Below, piece after piece: positions 52,891 to 63,475 of a stretch of 64,000 nucleotides of DNA. Made by a program: the position numbers and the translations under genes. Below the pieces are notes generated by a model. That model did not search any database. It was not told the origin of the DNA and saw nothing but the letters and a program-made list of their open reading frames with translations. Position 1 is the stretch's first letter; each line of letters begins with the position of its first letter. Source of the stretch: Dysgonomonas hofstadii (GTDB lineage: Bacteria > Bacteroidota > Bacteroidia > Bacteroidales > Dysgonomonadaceae); NCBI RefSeq assembly GCF_014196915.1, contig NZ_JACIEP010000019.1:1-64000 (forward strand). Reading direction: 5' to 3'.

Positions 52891-54765
52891 ATGAATTTCA
52901 AATATGATGTGATTGTTGTCGGGGCAGGCCATGCCGGTTGCGAAGCAGCAACAGCAGCAGCCAACATGGGCTCGAAAACTCTGCTGATAACGATGGACAT
53001 GAACAAAATAGCCCAAATGAGTTGCAACCCTGCCGTGGGAGGAATTGCAAAAGGACAGATCGTCCGCGAGATAGATGCGCTGGGTGGACAAATGGGAATA
53101 GTGACTGACACCACAGCTATTCAATTCCGTATGCTCAACAAATCAAAAGGTCCGGCCATGTGGAGTCCGAGAGCACAAAGCGACAGAGCACATTTTATAA
53201 TGAAATGGCGTCAGATTATAGAGAATACAAATAACCTTTTTATTTGGCAGGATACTGTTACTTCATTGATCATTGAGGACAAAACAGTGACCGGAGTGAA
53301 GACAGCTTTAGGCGTAAATTTCTCGGCTAAATCGGTTGTTTTGACTAATGGTACTTTCCTGAATGGATTGATGCATATAGGCAAAACACAACTTGGCGGA
53401 GGCCGTGTTTCCGAACCGGCTTCGTTCGGAATTACCGAACAATTGAGAGAAACCGGATTCACTACCGACAGAATGAAAACCGGAACACCGGCCCGAATCG
53501 ATGGACGTAGCGTTGACTTCAGTCTGATGGAAGAACAAAAAGGTGAAGATGATTTTCATAAATTCTCTTACCTGGATTTCAAGCCGAGAACGCTGAAACA
53601 ACTTAGTTGCTGGATCACCTATACCAACGAAGATACACATGCAACTTTGCGCGATGGATTGGACGATTCTCCGTTATATAATGGCCAGATAAAAAGTATT
53701 GGTCCACGCTATTGCCCGAGTATAGAAACTAAGATAGTAACCTTTGCCGACAAAACATCACACCAGTTATTCTTAGAACCGGAAGGAGAAAACACTCAGG
53801 AATATTACCTGAATGGATTCTCATCCTCTCTCCCACTCCATATACAGATCGAAGCGCTACAAAGAATTCCGGCATTCAGAAACATACATATATACAGACC
53901 GGGTTATGCTATCGAATATGATTTCTTCGATCCTACCCAATTAACCCATACGCTGGAAACAAAGCTTATAAAAAACCTATTCTTCGCCGGGCAGATCAAT
54001 GGAACAACCGGTTATGAAGAAGCCGGAGGACAAGGCCTGATGGCAGGAATAAATGCGCATATAAATACACATGGAGGCAATCAATTTATCCTGAAAAGAG
54101 ATGAAGCCTATATCGGCGTATTAATCGACGATTTGGTTACCAAAGGGGTGGATGAACCCTACCGTATGTTTACATCAAGGGCTGAATATCGCATCCTCCT
54201 CAGACAAGATGACGCCGACATGCGCCTAACGGAAAAAGGATATACTATAGGACTGGCCACAAAAGAACGCATCGATTTATTAAACGAGAAAAAAGAAGAG
54301 ATAGACAGAGTCACCGATTTTGCATCTAACTATTCTTTAAAGCCAGAATACATAAACCCAGGACTGGAAAAACTAGGAACAAGCCCATTAAAGCAAGGTA
54401 TAAAACTGAAAGATGTGATCACACGTCCGCAAATAACAATAGATGGCATCGCGGAATATATTCCAGCTTTCAAAACAGAGCTAGATAAAATACCAAACAG
54501 AAAAGAGGAAATAAAAGAAGCTGCTGAAATAAAAATAAAATACGACGGCTATATAAAAAGAGAACAATTAATAGCAGACAAGATTACACGGCTCGAAAAC
54601 ATCCGGATAAAAGGAAAGTTTAATTATGAAAACATTCTTTCCTTATCTACTGAAGCTCGTCAAAAATTATCGAAAATAGATCCCGAAACATTAGCACAGG
54701 CAAGCCGAATACCTGGGATTTCACCCAACGACATATCCATATTATTAGTACTTTTAGGAAGATAA
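52891..54765 (+). CDS. mnmG: tRNA uridine-5-carboxymethylaminomethyl modification enzyme MnmG
   Basis: With MnmE, MnmG (GidA) installs cmnm5 at U34 of several tRNAs, using FAD and methylene-THF. N-terminal FAD motif VVGAGHAGCEAA (GxGxxG), NPAVGGIAKGQIVREIDALGG, ATLRDGLDDSPLYNG-type and GTTGYEEAGGQGLMAGINAH blocks are intact, and the C-terminal helical domain ends in IPGISPNDISILLVLLGR. 624 aa is full length. It is directly followed by two parS-like sites and apt; gidA is classically found near replication origins. Confidence 0.98.
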   Translation: MNFKYDVIVVGAGHAGCEAATAAANMGSKTLLITMDMNKIAQMSCNPAVGGIAKGQIVREIDALGGQMGIVTDTTAIQFRMLNKSKGPAMWSPRAQSDRAHFIMKWRQIIENTNNLFIWQDTVTSLIIEDKTVTGVKTALGVNFSAKSVVLTNGTFLNGLMHIGKTQLGGGRVSEPASFGITEQLRETGFTTDRMKTGTPARIDGRSVDFSLMEEQKGEDDFHKFSYLDFKPRTLKQLSCWITYTNEDTHATLRDGLDDSPLYNGQIKSIGPRYCPSIETKIVTFADKTSHQLFLEPEGENTQEYYLNGFSSSLPLHIQIEALQRIPAFRNIHIYRPGYAIEYDFFDPTQLTHTLETKLIKNLFFAGQINGTTGYEEAGGQGLMAGINAHINTHGGNQFILKRDEAYIGVLIDDLVTKGVDEPYRMFTSRAEYRILLRQDDADMRLTEKGYTIGLATKERIDLLNEKKEEIDRVTDFASNYSLKPEYINPGLEKLGTSPLKQGIKLKDVITRPQITIDGIAEYIPAFKTELDKIPNRKEEIKEAAEIKIKYDGYIKREQLIADKITRLENIRIKGKFNYENILSLSTEARQKLSKIDPETLAQASRIPGISPNDISILLVLLGR

Positions 54766-54772
54766 AAATAAT

Positions 54773-54788
54773 TGTTCCACGTGGAACG
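54773..54788. promoter_or_regulatory. parS-like site 1 (TGTTCCACGTGGAACG)
   Basis: The core GTTCCACGTGGAAC (54774-54787) is a perfect 14-bp palindrome and differs little from the ParB-binding consensus TGTTNCACGTGAAACA. It begins 7 bp after the mnmG stop. Confidence 0.75.
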
Positions 54789-54806
54789 CAAACAAAAAAA
54801 ACGAAT

Positions 54807-54822
54807 TGTTCCACGTGAAACA
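54807..54822. promoter_or_regulatory. parS-like site 2 (TGTTCCACGTGAAACA)
   Basis: Fits the published parS consensus TGTTNCACGTGAAACA at all specified positions. It starts 34 bp after site 1 and 19 bp before the apt ATG, so bound ParB could also affect apt transcription. Confidence 0.85.
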
Positions 54823-58528: not shown

Positions 58529-60286
58529 TTATTTAATTATCATATCGTAAGGCATACGTGCCTGAACAAAATCCTGTTCTTTTATCTCTTTTAATATCTT
58601 AAAGTATTCGTAGTCAGCTCCCAGATAATCTTTCAAAGCCTTAGTAGTCAATTCTTCTTTCTGATTAGACAGGAAAGCTTCGAAGAAATCAACTTTACGA
58701 GGAAAATCACGTAATGAATAGTTTTCCAGTTCAGCCAATTTAGCCGCTTCTTTTATAGCTGTCTCAATACCACCTATTTCGTCCACAAGCCCGATTTCCA
58801 AAGCCTTGTTACCTGTCCACACACGTCCCTGAGCTATCATATCAAGTGAATCTTTCGGTATGCCACGACCATCAGAACAACGTGTAAGGAATAAATCATA
58901 TCCACGCTCTATATAACTCTGAAGTATCACTTTTTCATCGTCCCTCATCGGACGGGTCATATTACCAAAGTCGGAATATTTATTTGTCTTAACCACATCG
59001 ACGCTAACGCCTATTTTTTTTGTCAAACCCTCAATATTAGGAAACATACCGAATATGCCTATCGATCCTGTCAGTGTATTCGGCTGTGCAATGATTTTAT
59101 TTGCGTTACATGAGATATAGTAACCACCCGAAGCGGCATAGTCACCCATAGACACCACCACTGGTTTTTTAGCTTTCAAAAGTCCCACAGCTTCCCATAT
59201 TTCTTCCGAAGCATAAGCACTACCTCCACCTGAGTTAACGCGGAATACAACGGCTTTTACTTTGTCATTATCCCTTAGTTTTTCTATTTCCTTCACATAA
59301 CGCTTACTGGTAATACCTTCCCTACCCGATCCGTCTGTAATAGAACCTTCTGCATATAATACGGCTATTATATCTTCCGATTTATCTCCTTTTACAGCAG
59401 GAACAGTCGTTATATCATTTACTGACGCCAGATGTACATCTTTTACTTTTTCTACTTCAAGCAGGTTTTTCAGATATTCTTTTACACCCGTTTCATACAT
59501 AAGAGTGTCTACCATACCGTTTGCCAACATTACCGATGCTTCTCTGAAAGTAGGAAGAGAATCGGTAAGCACATTCAATTTTTCGGGAGATATATTACGC
59601 GATGATGATATATCGGTAATAATTGTGTTCCAAGCGTCATTTATATACGCCGAAAGCTGTTCGCGGTTAGCATCACTCATTTTATCCAGCATGAATGGCT
59701 CAACAGCCGACTTAAAGGTTCCTACCTTGAATATCTGCATCTCCACTCCTATTTTATCAAGCAATCCTTTGTAGAACATAGGCGTAGCTGCCAATCCGTG
59801 CAAATCTAAATTCCCTTGTGGATTCAATATCACTTTATCGGCTACCGAAGAAAGATAATAACATCCCTGAGTATATATGTCGGCATACGAAATTATAAAT
59901 TTGCCGCTTTCTTTAAAATCCAGCAACTGATTTCTAATTTCTTTTATAGATGCTCCACCGGCAGAAAAAGCTCCGGCATGAATATAAATACCCTTTATTT
60001 TATCATTTTCTTTTGCTTTCTTTATAGACGATAAAACATCATCCAGACCGATTTGTGGTTCCTGATCCTGTCCCAAAAGAGCAAGAAACGGATTCCCATC
60101 TTCTACCCTTTCCGATAATACACCTTCCAGTTTCAGTGTAAGCACGGTATTATCCTTCAGTGTATACTTATCCGAAGAACTGAATGACATTGAAGCTATT
60201 GAAATGAAAAGTATAAGAAAAAACAATCCTAAAACTATAAAGCAGCCGACTATTGAGCCCAGCATACCCTTAAAAAAATCTTTCAT
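58529..60286 (-). CDS. sppA: Signal peptide peptidase SppA (long type)
   Basis: 585 aa membrane-anchored serine protease that degrades cleaved signal peptides. One N-terminal helix (about 9-32) and two tandem ClpP/crotonase-like domains. The nucleophile Ser is in SMGDYAASGGYYIS (second half) and the general-base Lys is expected in the first half (IISYADIYTQGCYYLSSVADKVI). Length matches the 67-kDa E. coli-like class. A -7 element (TATTTTTGT, 60321-60313) lies about 27 bp upstream. Confidence 0.95.
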   Translation of the reverse strand: MKDFFKGMLGSIVGCFIVLGLFFLILFISIASMSFSSSDKYTLKDNTVLTLKLEGVLSERVEDGNPFLALLGQDQEPQIGLDDVLSSIKKAKENDKIKGIYIHAGAFSAGGASIKEIRNQLLDFKESGKFIISYADIYTQGCYYLSSVADKVILNPQGNLDLHGLAATPMFYKGLLDKIGVEMQIFKVGTFKSAVEPFMLDKMSDANREQLSAYINDAWNTIITDISSSRNISPEKLNVLTDSLPTFREASVMLANGMVDTLMYETGVKEYLKNLLEVEKVKDVHLASVNDITTVPAVKGDKSEDIIAVLYAEGSITDGSGREGITSKRYVKEIEKLRDNDKVKAVVFRVNSGGGSAYASEEIWEAVGLLKAKKPVVVSMGDYAASGGYYISCNANKIIAQPNTLTGSIGIFGMFPNIEGLTKKIGVSVDVVKTNKYSDFGNMTRPMRDDEKVILQSYIERGYDLFLTRCSDGRGIPKDSLDMIAQGRVWTGNKALEIGLVDEIGGIETAIKEAAKLAELENYSLRDFPRKVDFFEAFLSNQKEELTTKALKDYLGADYEYFKILKEIKEQDFVQARMPYDMIIK

Positions 60287-60312
60287 CTTTCTATTATTTA
60301 TATTTATAAGTT

Positions 60313-60321
60313 ACAAAAATA
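60313..60321 (-). promoter_or_regulatory. -7 element (TATTTTTGT) of sppA
   Basis: Matches TAnnTTTG plus pyrimidine on the - strand, 26 bp before the sppA ATG at 60286. Confidence 0.5.
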
Positions 60322-60387
60322 CATATTTATCTGATAAAAAGCTATTTATACAGCATTATCATCTCTTATTTAATTCAATATATAATA

Positions 60388-60417
60388 TGTTGATATAATG
60401 TTGAAAACTGTTGAAAT
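60388..60417 (+). repeat. Three tandem DnaA-box-like 9-mers
   Basis: TGTTGATAT, TGTTGAAAA and TGTTGAAAT start at 60388, 60399 and 60409, about one helical turn apart, so bound proteins would sit on the same face of the DNA. They lie next to a very AT-rich run. Confidence 0.5.
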
Positions 60418-60811
60418 ATTTTTTAATAAAAATTTAATGGTTTCTAAACAAAAACATCATATATGAAATAAGTCGCAACAAACAATTAAAAATCACAGAA
60501 AATTATAAGACTTATTTCAAACCTTTATTAACAACAAATCAAAGAAAATAAAAAATAAGTTTTTAACAATAATAGTTATCAACAGCTTTTTAATAAAGTT
60601 CACAAAACGCTTTATATAAATAATTTGACTATTTTTACTCCGTTTAATAACTTTCTTTGTACATACAACAAACTTTTAATATCAAAATATACAAGTATTC
60701 ATACAAAAAAGAATAAACAGTATTAACAGTCAATAATCATAACCATGATTTTTTTTAAGTTTTAAATAAAAAGAATATATATTAATATCATTTGATAACT
60801 ACTATCATTAT

Positions 60812-63475
60812 ATGAAAATCTCTTACATAAAAACACTTATAACTTCATTTATCATCGGTTCAACAATACCGGTGGAAGCTCAAAATGAAATTGATCCTCT
60901 ACCCGACTCCATTATTGCAAATATCGCAGATAATTTTCAGAAACAAGTGAGAATTTATCCTCAGGAAAAAATATATGCACAAACCGATAAACCTTATTAT
61001 ATTACAGGAGAAGACATCTGGTTCAGAATATACCTTGTGGATGCTTATTCCAATCTGGTAGATACTACGAGTCGCTATGTGTACGCCGAGCTCATCGATC
61101 CTGTGGATTCTGTTGCAAGCAGGGTGAAAATAAGACCTGTGAACGGAGCTTATCACGGATATATTAAACTGCAAGAAGATATGCCCGAGGGGGAATATAT
61201 GTTGCGGTTCTATACCAAGTTTATGGAAAGCCTGGGTGATAATTATTTTTTTAAACGATCGGTACGTATAGGTGATCCACTATCAGCTCTTTACAGAACA
61301 GAATCTAAATTTGAATACGAAGATAAAGGAAAGGTCAACATAGAGCTGAAGTTTATCGACATAAAAAATAATAGTCCGATAAAGCCTGATAATCTTGAAA
61401 TAATAGATAATAAAGGCGAATTGAGGACAATAAAGATAAAAGACGACTATACAGCTAACATATCGCTAAAATTTTCGGATAGGGAAAACAACAACAGGCA
61501 GCTGTATATAAAGTATGACTACGATGGTAAATTTCACAAACAGTTTATTTCTATTCCTAACAATCCCGATTTTGATGTTTCTTTTTTACCTGAGGGTGGG
61601 CATAATATTGCCGGAGTTGTTAACAGGATTGCTTTTAAAACGCTAAATTCGGATGGATATGGTGAAGATATAGAAGGTATAATAGTTAATACAAAAGGAG
61701 ATACTGTAGGCGATTTCAATTCCAATCATCTGGGCATGGGATTGCTCCTGTTTCAACCAGAGGTCGATAGTATGTTTTATGCTATTTGTAAAAATAAGGC
61801 GGGGCTGGTTAAAAAATATAAGTTGCCTGATGCTGTAACTGGCCATATAGCCTTGCAGGTAAATAACAGGCCCGACAGGTATGTTATCTCGCTTCGTAAC
61901 CCGTACGATGCTCCTGTAGATAACGCATCGTCCTTGTATGTGGCAATACAATGCCGGGGACAAATACTGAATGTGTTTCAGTGGGATAATACCAAGCCCT
62001 TCATGTTTTTACCAAAAGAGCAATTACCTTCAGGGGTTATTCAGTTTCTATTGATTGATTCAGATAAGAATCCGATTAGCGAAAGGCTCGTTTTTAATAT
62101 TAGTGAGACTGATACAACCAAGGTGGATTTTTTTACAAATAAAAGTAATTACGGACAGAGAGAACAAGTAAAAGGTTCTATAAAATTATCCAATTATGAA
62201 AATAATCCCGTAATGGCCAGTTTTTCGGTTTCGGTGACCGACGATAAGGATATAAAGCCTGATACTTGTGTAAATATACTATCCACATTGTTATTGACAT
62301 CAGAGGTGAAAGGATACATAGAATCGCCGGTTTATTACTTTTCAGATATGAATGTTGATAAAGCAGGTAAACTCGATTTACTGATGATGACTCAGGGCTG
62401 GAGCAGGTATGACGTAGAAAAAGTACTTAAAGGAGACTTTGAAAGACCTAAAAATTATCTTGAACTGGGACAGTATATATCGGGTTCGGTGAAGGGTGGT
62501 TTGTTTATGAATAAAAAATCGGGTGGATATCCTGTTACCCTGATTTCATCAAAGGGAGGTGTGTTTAACCAGACATTGACAGATGAAGAAGGAAAATTTC
62601 ATTTTCTGGGCTTTGAAGCGCCTGACAGTACTTCATTTATTATACAGGGATTGACGAAAAAAGGTGGTGATCGTGTGGAATTACTTATAGATAATGAGAC
62701 TTTTCCTCAAAGTAAATTTACTTTACCTCATACCTATACAGATAGTCCTTCTTTTGAAAAATACATGGAAAAAGCCGATCAGAATTTTATAGTGACTAAT
62801 GGTATGCGTATGATCTATCTGAAGGATATAGAAATTATAGGAAAAAAGAATTCACTGTCAGAGAGAGGGAAATCCACATTTTCTTCGGGTATGAATCCAC
62901 GTGTATCGTATAAAGATTTTGAAAAATATCATCCAAACGATATATTTCAGGTTCTCAGAAATTTTGGAGGAGTCGTAGTGACAGGTGACAAAGTATCTAT
63001 CCGTGGTGGTGGCGATCCTTTGGTATTAGTTGATGATATACAGTATGAAGCGGAATTTTTATCTTCTATACCTATACAGGATGTAGACGAAGTGGAAGTA
63101 ATAAAAGATGGTACTGCCGCTATTTTCGGAATGCGCGGAGCTAATGGAGTTATTATGATAACGACAAAAAGAGGTGAAATAACCAGTGCAAGGGATATAA
63201 AATTCAATATAAAATATATTACACCTCTTGGTTATCAGGTTACCAAAGAATTTTATTCACCCAGGTACGAAACCGAAGACAAAAAATCAAACCCGAATCC
63301 CGATCTGCGTACTACCATCCATTGGGCTCCTTCTCTTAAAACTGATAATAGTGGAAGTGCTGCCATTGATTTTTACACATCCGACGGATCTACTTCTTAT
63401 TCGGTAGTTGTAGAAGGTATTACAACTAATGGGTCATTGATTCACTCTGTTCATAAAATATCACGTAAAGACTAA
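60812..63475 (+). CDS. Large exported protein: MG2-like domains plus isolated TonB-plug domain
   Basis: 887 aa with signal peptide (MKISYIKTLITSFIIGSTIPVEAQ). Residues about 45-150 look like a macroglobulin MG2-type beta-sandwich (QEKIYAQTDKPYYITGEDIWFRIYLVDAYSN). Further beta-sandwich repeats fill about 165-640, including a carboxypeptidase-regulatory-like stretch (SGSVKGGLFMNKKSGGYPVTLISSKGG). Near the C-terminus (about 715-790) is a TonB-receptor plug-like domain (VRNFGGVVVTG...DPLVLVDDIQYEAE...IPIQDVDEVEVIKDGTAAIFGMRGANGVIMITTKRG) with no beta-barrel after it. Such proteins occur across Bacteroidota but their role is not established. It is followed by a separate outer-membrane barrel gene. 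Confidence 0.85.
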   Translation: MKISYIKTLITSFIIGSTIPVEAQNEIDPLPDSIIANIADNFQKQVRIYPQEKIYAQTDKPYYITGEDIWFRIYLVDAYSNLVDTTSRYVYAELIDPVDSVASRVKIRPVNGAYHGYIKLQEDMPEGEYMLRFYTKFMESLGDNYFFKRSVRIGDPLSALYRTESKFEYEDKGKVNIELKFIDIKNNSPIKPDNLEIIDNKGELRTIKIKDDYTANISLKFSDRENNNRQLYIKYDYDGKFHKQFISIPNNPDFDVSFLPEGGHNIAGVVNRIAFKTLNSDGYGEDIEGIIVNTKGDTVGDFNSNHLGMGLLLFQPEVDSMFYAICKNKAGLVKKYKLPDAVTGHIALQVNNRPDRYVISLRNPYDAPVDNASSLYVAIQCRGQILNVFQWDNTKPFMFLPKEQLPSGVIQFLLIDSDKNPISERLVFNISETDTTKVDFFTNKSNYGQREQVKGSIKLSNYENNPVMASFSVSVTDDKDIKPDTCVNILSTLLLTSEVKGYIESPVYYFSDMNVDKAGKLDLLMMTQGWSRYDVEKVLKGDFERPKNYLELGQYISGSVKGGLFMNKKSGGYPVTLISSKGGVFNQTLTDEEGKFHFLGFEAPDSTSFIIQGLTKKGGDRVELLIDNETFPQSKFTLPHTYTDSPSFEKYMEKADQNFIVTNGMRMIYLKDIEIIGKKNSLSERGKSTFSSGMNPRVSYKDFEKYHPNDIFQVLRNFGGVVVTGDKVSIRGGGDPLVLVDDIQYEAEFLSSIPIQDVDEVEVIKDGTAAIFGMRGANGVIMITTKRGEITSARDIKFNIKYITPLGYQVTKEFYSPRYETEDKKSNPNPDLRTTIHWAPSLKTDNSGSAAIDFYTSDGSTSYSVVVEGITTNGSLIHSVHKISRKD

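Follow-up and report, generated by a model that had tools for sequence, protein, structure and literature searches.

Replication origins that are linked to dnaA, such as those of E. coli and B. subtilis, combine clusters of DnaA boxes with an AT-rich unwinding region and a skew minimum, and in B. subtilis parS sites lie nearby. In the Bacteroidales, a dominant order of the gut, origins are to our knowledge remote from dnaA and have for the most part been predicted by software. For Prevotella intermedia OMA14, the accessible part of the report describes a predicted oriC of chromosome 1 that has DnaA boxes and a GC-skew transition and is not near dnaA (PMC4755523), and a P. gingivalis paper, as far as its accessible text goes, sets oriC at base 1 of dnaA (PMC5771137), which we count against the reading presented here. 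The basal unwinding system is described, in the excerpts available, as tandem boxes, a spacer and trios with a conserved middle adenine, the DnaA-trio consensus being 3'-GAT-5' (PMC8287927).

We describe here an intergenic gap of a Dysgonomonas genome, situated in a window of 64,000 bp that comprises bases 1-64000 of contig C19 (84,470 bp) in a 5.04-Mb draft assembly of 44 contigs. The original prediction that this gap may be oriC is strongly supported, and on computational evidence we regard positions 60287-60811 as very probably the chromosomal replication origin, on the grounds of a cluster of DnaA-box-like sites, flips of the replication skew here and at homologous blocks in other genera, near-single copy, nearby parS-like sites and a core conserved in relatives. 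It resembles the dnaA-linked origins in its box clusters, AT-rich region, skew minimum and nearby parS-like sites, but its boxes are like TTATCAACA and not TTATCCACA, and dnaA is distant, being on contig C31 in this genome and, in the complete congener G003, at 1,420,245, which is 1.1 Mb off the block. Adjacency to dnaA is typical in many lineages and is no defining feature of oriC, and the distance does not speak against an origin, because oriC commonly lies far from dnaA in Bacteroidetes according to the accessible text of PMC4755523. The P. intermedia oriC is alike in its boxes, skew transition and separation from dnaA, and unlike in that the available part of its description gives no conserved core and no nadA-type neighbour.

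The gap is exactly as it was first delimited, a gene-free 525 bp between the starts of two divergent genes, and its high AT content, also pointed out at the outset, makes it the most AT-rich place of the window (525-bp windows in 25-bp steps). The 64-kb window has no tRNA gene that we could find. The features discussed below are collected in Table 1.

Table 1. Positions, strands and basis of the features in and around the gap
Feature	Position in window	Strand	Basis or remark
mnmG (gidA)	52891..54765	+	about 6 kb left of gap
parS-like site	54773..54788	+	3 mismatches to TGTTTCACGTGAAACA
parS-like site	54807..54822	+	1 mismatch to TGTTTCACGTGAAACA
sppA (Peptidase_S49), left neighbour	58529..60286	-	domain match
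Intergenic gap with predicted oriC	60287..60811		81.7% AT
DnaA-box-like 9-mer R1 (TGTTGATAT), opens left direct array	60388..60396	+	pattern search, aligned block
DnaA-box-like 9-mer R2 (TGTTGAAAA)	60399..60407	+	pattern search, aligned block
DnaA-box-like 9-mer R3 (TGTTGAAAT)	60409..60417	+	pattern search, aligned block
DnaA-box-like 9-mer R4, opposite orientation (TTATTAACA on +)	60525..60533	-	near-match search, aligned block
Weak DnaA-box-like 9-mer R5 (TTTTTAACA on +; several relatives TTTTCAACA)	60560..60568	-	aligned block
DnaA-box-like 9-mer R6 (TTATCAACA on +)	60576..60584	-	pattern search
Box-like 9-mer R7 (GTTTAATAA; several relatives TGTTRATAA)	60642..60650	+	alignments
Weak boxes R8 and R9, abutting (GAATAAACA, GTATTAACA on +)	60711..60728	-	alignments
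DnaA-trio-like element, five A (60733, 60736, 60739, 60742, 60745)	60733..60745	+	3-bp steps
AT-rich run, proposed DNA unwinding element	60746..60811		composition (88% AT)
182-bp core, sequence model R1	60575..60756	+	nearly without indels across genus
Stretch matching order-wide origin model R2	60525..60758	+	E 8e-28; window among model's 14 source sequences
TonB plug domain gene, right neighbour	60812..63475	+	plus sub-cut-off MG2 match; place not conserved in genus

The box cluster exceeds chance expectation. The three direct copies of the 9-mer TGTTGAWAW from which the prediction started (R1, R2 and R3) and the inverted copy (R6) were all confirmed, and the whole window holds 13 copies against 5.0 expected, a number that none of 100 shuffles reached. 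When the gap was shuffled 20,000 times with its dinucleotides preserved, four copies never arose, nor did three same-strand copies inside 25 bp; the remainder of the window has no second same-strand triplet of this kind within 25 bp. With up to one mismatch allowed, TTATCAACA is often matched outside the gap too (43 times in the window versus 29 expected), and single boxes therefore carry little weight.

The arrangement of these sites is ordered. Boxes R1-R3 form a left array in direct orientation spaced at 10-11 bp, the middle boxes R4, R5 and R6 have the opposite orientation, and in the right part the abutting R8 and R9 are followed by a short spacer, the array of five adenines and the AT-rich run. 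In alignment A2, which contains 20 sequences (19 of the genus, and one from G029, a genome of another genus), every base of box R6 is invariant except the third and fifth, and the five adenines (columns 159, 162, 165, 168 and 171) are invariant in all 20. Across the order, these positions are A in 0.86, 1.00, 0.94, 0.89 and 1.00 of 35-36 sequences, of which 11 of 36 come from genomes that trained model R2 (one of 37 aligned matches was left out as too short). The repeat unit of this 3-bp-periodic array is mostly YAT, on the strand reading TTATCAACA. The right part is laid out like the basal unwinding system of the B. subtilis oriC as the accessible texts present it, with tandem boxes, a short spacer, a 3-bp-periodic A array and AT-rich DNA; the boxes here are weak and the YAT unit is not clearly the 3'-GAT-5' of that system (PMC8287927, PMC6669920, PMC8235120). 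Such a system would comprise at least three NAN trios behind tandem boxes and a spacer, and the five adenines may be a candidate for it.

Raw GC skew in 10-kb stretches is noisy and dominated by gene direction, and we therefore used fourfold-degenerate sites corrected for gene strand, subtracting a strand-of-gene term estimated per genome (C19 took the term of G003); for change points, G minus C and T minus A were taken together, and the whole-chromosome fits use GC only. A skew switch across the gap had been proposed from the base counts of four 60-base lines, all of which are exact; single lines however prove little, and it is the single best minus-to-plus change point of the 84.5-kb contig, at 61035 (support 59716-62487; block permutation p 0.0005), that bears the switch out. 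The chromosome of G003 (5,219,467 bp) was sampled in 47 stretches covering about 10% of it, and a two-arm fit gives 2.51-2.54 Mb for the origin and 4.82-4.94 Mb for the terminus, with the caveats that some stretches are wrong-signed in either arm (e.g. at 2.34 and 2.99 Mb) and that the fitted terminus makes the arms unequal. Within a contiguous stretch of 140 kb the G003 switch falls at 2,518,156 (support 2,517,463-2,526,606), and the orthologous core lies at 2,518,607-2,518,787. A skew minimum located elsewhere, named beforehand as an outcome that would tell against an origin, was looked for on C19 and in the sampled G003 and was not found, the minimum lying at the block in both.

Absence of the repeats from close relatives, the other such outcome, is not what we see either, since the core is present in 21 of 25 genus genomes as matches to model R1, one each (G011 has an additional weak second match), and relatives mostly carry one conserved copy per chromosome. 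The core is 182 bp long in 16 of the 20 sequences of A2, and 180, 181, 183 and 183 bp in the others. Model R1 is unmatched in G004, G009 and G020, which are 71, 55 and 82% complete, and in G019, which is 99% complete but may have an assembly that lacks the origin region. We note that G019, besides the block, also lacks a full-length sppA and parS. The block adjoins sppA in 20 of the 21 matched genomes, and in G010 block and sppA are on separate contigs, each at a contig end.

In the comparison of sppA-flanking gaps among related genomes that had been proposed as a check, the block aligns in 19 loci, window included, after removal of same-locus duplicates and of loci in which the contig ends at sppA (G008, G010 and G020). 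The measured gap is 507-1185 bp long with 72-83% AT in 18 of these; in the remaining locus (L037) a spurious ORF reduced the measurement to 39 bp, in place of which 1,081 bp was used. The right-hand neighbour is far less constant, the plug-protein gene being found there by tblastn only in the window and L033, and its place being taken in nine other loci by an SGNH/GDSL-hydrolase-like gene (6/9, one of the six confirmed as Lipase_GDSL_2) or another gene (3/9). On the left, extra DNA separates sppA from the block in L037 and L042. These observations bear on the simplest alternative, that the gap is an ordinary double promoter of divergent genes whose box-like words arise from AT richness or serve a regulator. 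Its position between divergent genes and its very high AT content would suit such a promoter, but the boxes were seen in none of the 20,000 composition-matched shuffles, the block stays in place when the right neighbour changes and when DNA intervenes before sppA, elsewhere it adjoins nadA or a phosphatase gene, and both the skew and parS would be left unexplained, and we consider this reading highly unlikely. The use of sppA as an origin marker was dropped, since its homologues at 62% identity or less mostly have short gaps with at most one box-like word; L050, with a gap of 1,698 bp, is an exception to the short gaps.

The tandem arrangement of boxes R2 and R3 speaks further for an origin. 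It occurs once in the 5.0-Mb genome, at the gap, and the corresponding pattern TGTTRAWAACTGTTRAWAW is present in 10 of 61 genomes, once in each, and read backwards in none of the 61. Nine of these ten are among the 25 genus genomes (own genome included), all with the pattern in the sppA gap; the exact pattern is absent from the other 16. The tenth is G029, where it lies at 1,652,489, near neither of the two sppA genes of that genome.

Beyond the genus, 9 of 11 distant matches to model R1 that were compared with their flanks adjoin nadA (weak matches inside ORFs, in G057 and G037, and the second weak match of G011 were dropped). A second model, R2, built from 14 sequences, matches 79 of 148 order genomes, 74 once and five twice, with five of the 79 having supplied training sequences, and finds no match in the other 69; G057 re-entered through this model with a match that still overlaps the same ORF and is doubtful. 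Among the 30 best order matches, nadA lies within the 1.5-kb flank on the right side of the block in 27, the three exceptions being two genus members and G029, and it is present in 24 of 24 of these best matches that come from outside both the training set and the genus. In Dysgonomonas nadA is parted from the block, lying on contig C5 in the present genome and at 387,058 in G003 (2.13 Mb off). In G029 nadA is 0.19 Mb from the block, which adjoins a tyrosine-phosphatase gene, and some nadA-linked genomes carry a similar gene at the block's opposite side. The origin has apparently moved from nadA to sppA, changing its neighbours while its sequence was kept.

The frequency with which nadA adjoins the best matches might itself suggest that the block serves nadA as a cis-regulatory element or RNA leader and is no origin. 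However, the Dysgonomonas and G029 blocks are away from nadA and yet keep their sequence, at a skew flip, and no Rfam family matches window positions 60000-61200 up to E 1, a result on which the RNA leader reading was dropped; we regard such an element as vanishingly improbable. The reading that we favour for the family of blocks is that the origins of the Bacteroidales probably have in common a single homologous core, about 180-240 bp long, that can be identified from its sequence alone, was ancestrally fixed beside nadA and moved as a unit to sppA in Dysgonomonas and elsewhere in sister genera with its box spacing and 3-bp-periodic adenine array kept, a relocatable module.

At the level of the phylum, model R2 matches the present genome and weakly (E 8e-6 to 1e-3) five of the 117 others among 118 genomes; the 25 of those 117 that are listed belong to other orders or classes. 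One of the weak matches, L343 (G260:C1:2363156), is outside the class and falls precisely into the gap between rnpA and dnaA, where oriC classically resides, which suggests a shared box architecture. Another, L342 (G253:C7:920264), outside the order, adjoins an rpiB gene, which may mark an old neighbour on that side of the block. We note that rpiB flanks the block both in L342 and in L265 (G043, an order genome).

The skew was also followed in other genera. In G029 a coarse fit missed the block, giving 1.32-1.50 Mb as against the box pair at 1,652,489, and the region was refined by 14 further stretches in addition to the earlier ones. The combined skew is -0.12 to -0.21 over 1.53-1.63 Mb, +0.01 at 1.635-1.652 Mb and +0.35 at 1.653-1.670 Mb, so that the switch at about 1.65 Mb predicted from the box pair came true, with the blemish that four of five stretches in G029:C1:1350000-1520000 are positive, the wrong sign left of the block; these would need a rearrangement and look like the trace of a local inversion. 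Among five more genomes, four have a combined change point no more than 1.2 kb away from the block, at 1,011,809 in G183 (block 1,012,481), 314,708 in G033 (block 315,393), 366,756 in G096 (block 367,864) and 763,348 in G166 (block 764,471); in the fifth, G159, it is off by 40 kb (282,526; block 322,518). These figures come from stretches centred symmetrically on the block, a layout that is biased towards change points near its centre, and the sampling skips 1.0-1.5 kb right at the block. The GC term reverses sign cleanly in every 20-kb stretch of G183 and G096; taken alone, it puts the change point 5 kb off in G183 (1,017,882) and elsewhere in G033 (292,742) and G166 (791,219); in these last two genomes the match is due to the AT term.

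DnaA also binds clusters outside origins, and skew resolution in the genus is only about 3-9 kb; the true origin could accordingly be at the skew switch but in another gap within a few kb, with the block as an accessory DnaA-binding site (datA-like or concerned with timing). Against this, what is conserved at the flip in several genera is the block, which marks the most AT-rich place of the window, and model R2 also matches the rnpA-dnaA gap of a genome outside the class. We judge an accessory site very improbable.

Candidate parS sites near the gap would fit an origin that is segregated by ParABS. The parS-like pair is situated between mnmG and a phosphoribosyltransferase gene, 5.8 kb from the gap, and is scored against TGTTTCACGTGAAACA, which we take to be the parS consensus. 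Two sites at three or fewer mismatches are weak alone (0.36 expected; 7 of 100 window shuffles give two), and what counts is the place of the pair in the genome and in relatives. The present genome has one further parS-like site, on C1, and none in the reversed control, which gives 0 to 4 per strand in other genomes. The contig of the block also carries a parS-like site in 13 of 21 genomes from the genus, 4 of 6 from the remaining genera of the family and 31 of 51 from other families, at 3.2-71.2 kb from the block; the remaining 30 block-bearing genomes have their parS-like sites on other draft contigs, which says little either way. These counts used 38 of the 58 parS-bearing R2-positive genomes, those with listed sites, and omit five R2-positive genomes without parS, G028 (a weak R1 match, with parS on another contig) and G025 (block, no parS). 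In G075 the same-contig site has one mismatch, and two exact sites are on other contigs. We also note that an ORF across the pair (54773-54822) reads MFHVER and VPRET.

The layout of the block suggests a plausible sequence of events. We infer that DnaA binds the boxes and that the right end melts: DnaA-ATP would bind the left direct array R1-R3, whose members are spaced by one helical turn, together with the inverted boxes R4-R6, would extend from the abutting R8/R9 onto the 3-bp-periodic adenine array (60733-60745), and would then open the AT-rich run up to 60811. Two helicases would load and forks depart both ways, and ParB on the parS pair 5.8 kb away would begin segregation. Over evolutionary time the block would act as one unit, next to nadA in a large part of the order and next to sppA in Dysgonomonas.

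The element itself is of a known kind, and what is new is the conserved, movable core. If true, a relocatable conserved origin contrasts with the common picture of origins that are tied to their neighbours and variable in sequence, and the natural relocation in Dysgonomonas, which parted the origin from the genes around it, reveals the bases that are retained. We found no account of this origin, the nadA link or the order-wide core in the open-licence literature that we consulted, although DoriC entries or the lineage indicator genes of Ori-Finder 2022 could already hold a nadA rule. An origin model applicable to drafts and MAGs would permit coverage-based growth rates, correct assembly rotation and the design of footprinting experiments.

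Two minor observations concern the sppA side of the locus. Among the named matches listed for the sppA product, the nearest is from Dysgonomonas sp. PF1-14, at 80% identity, which points to a Dysgonomonas-like host. In L042, a palindrome-like repeat word is apparent by eye in the insert between sppA and the block.
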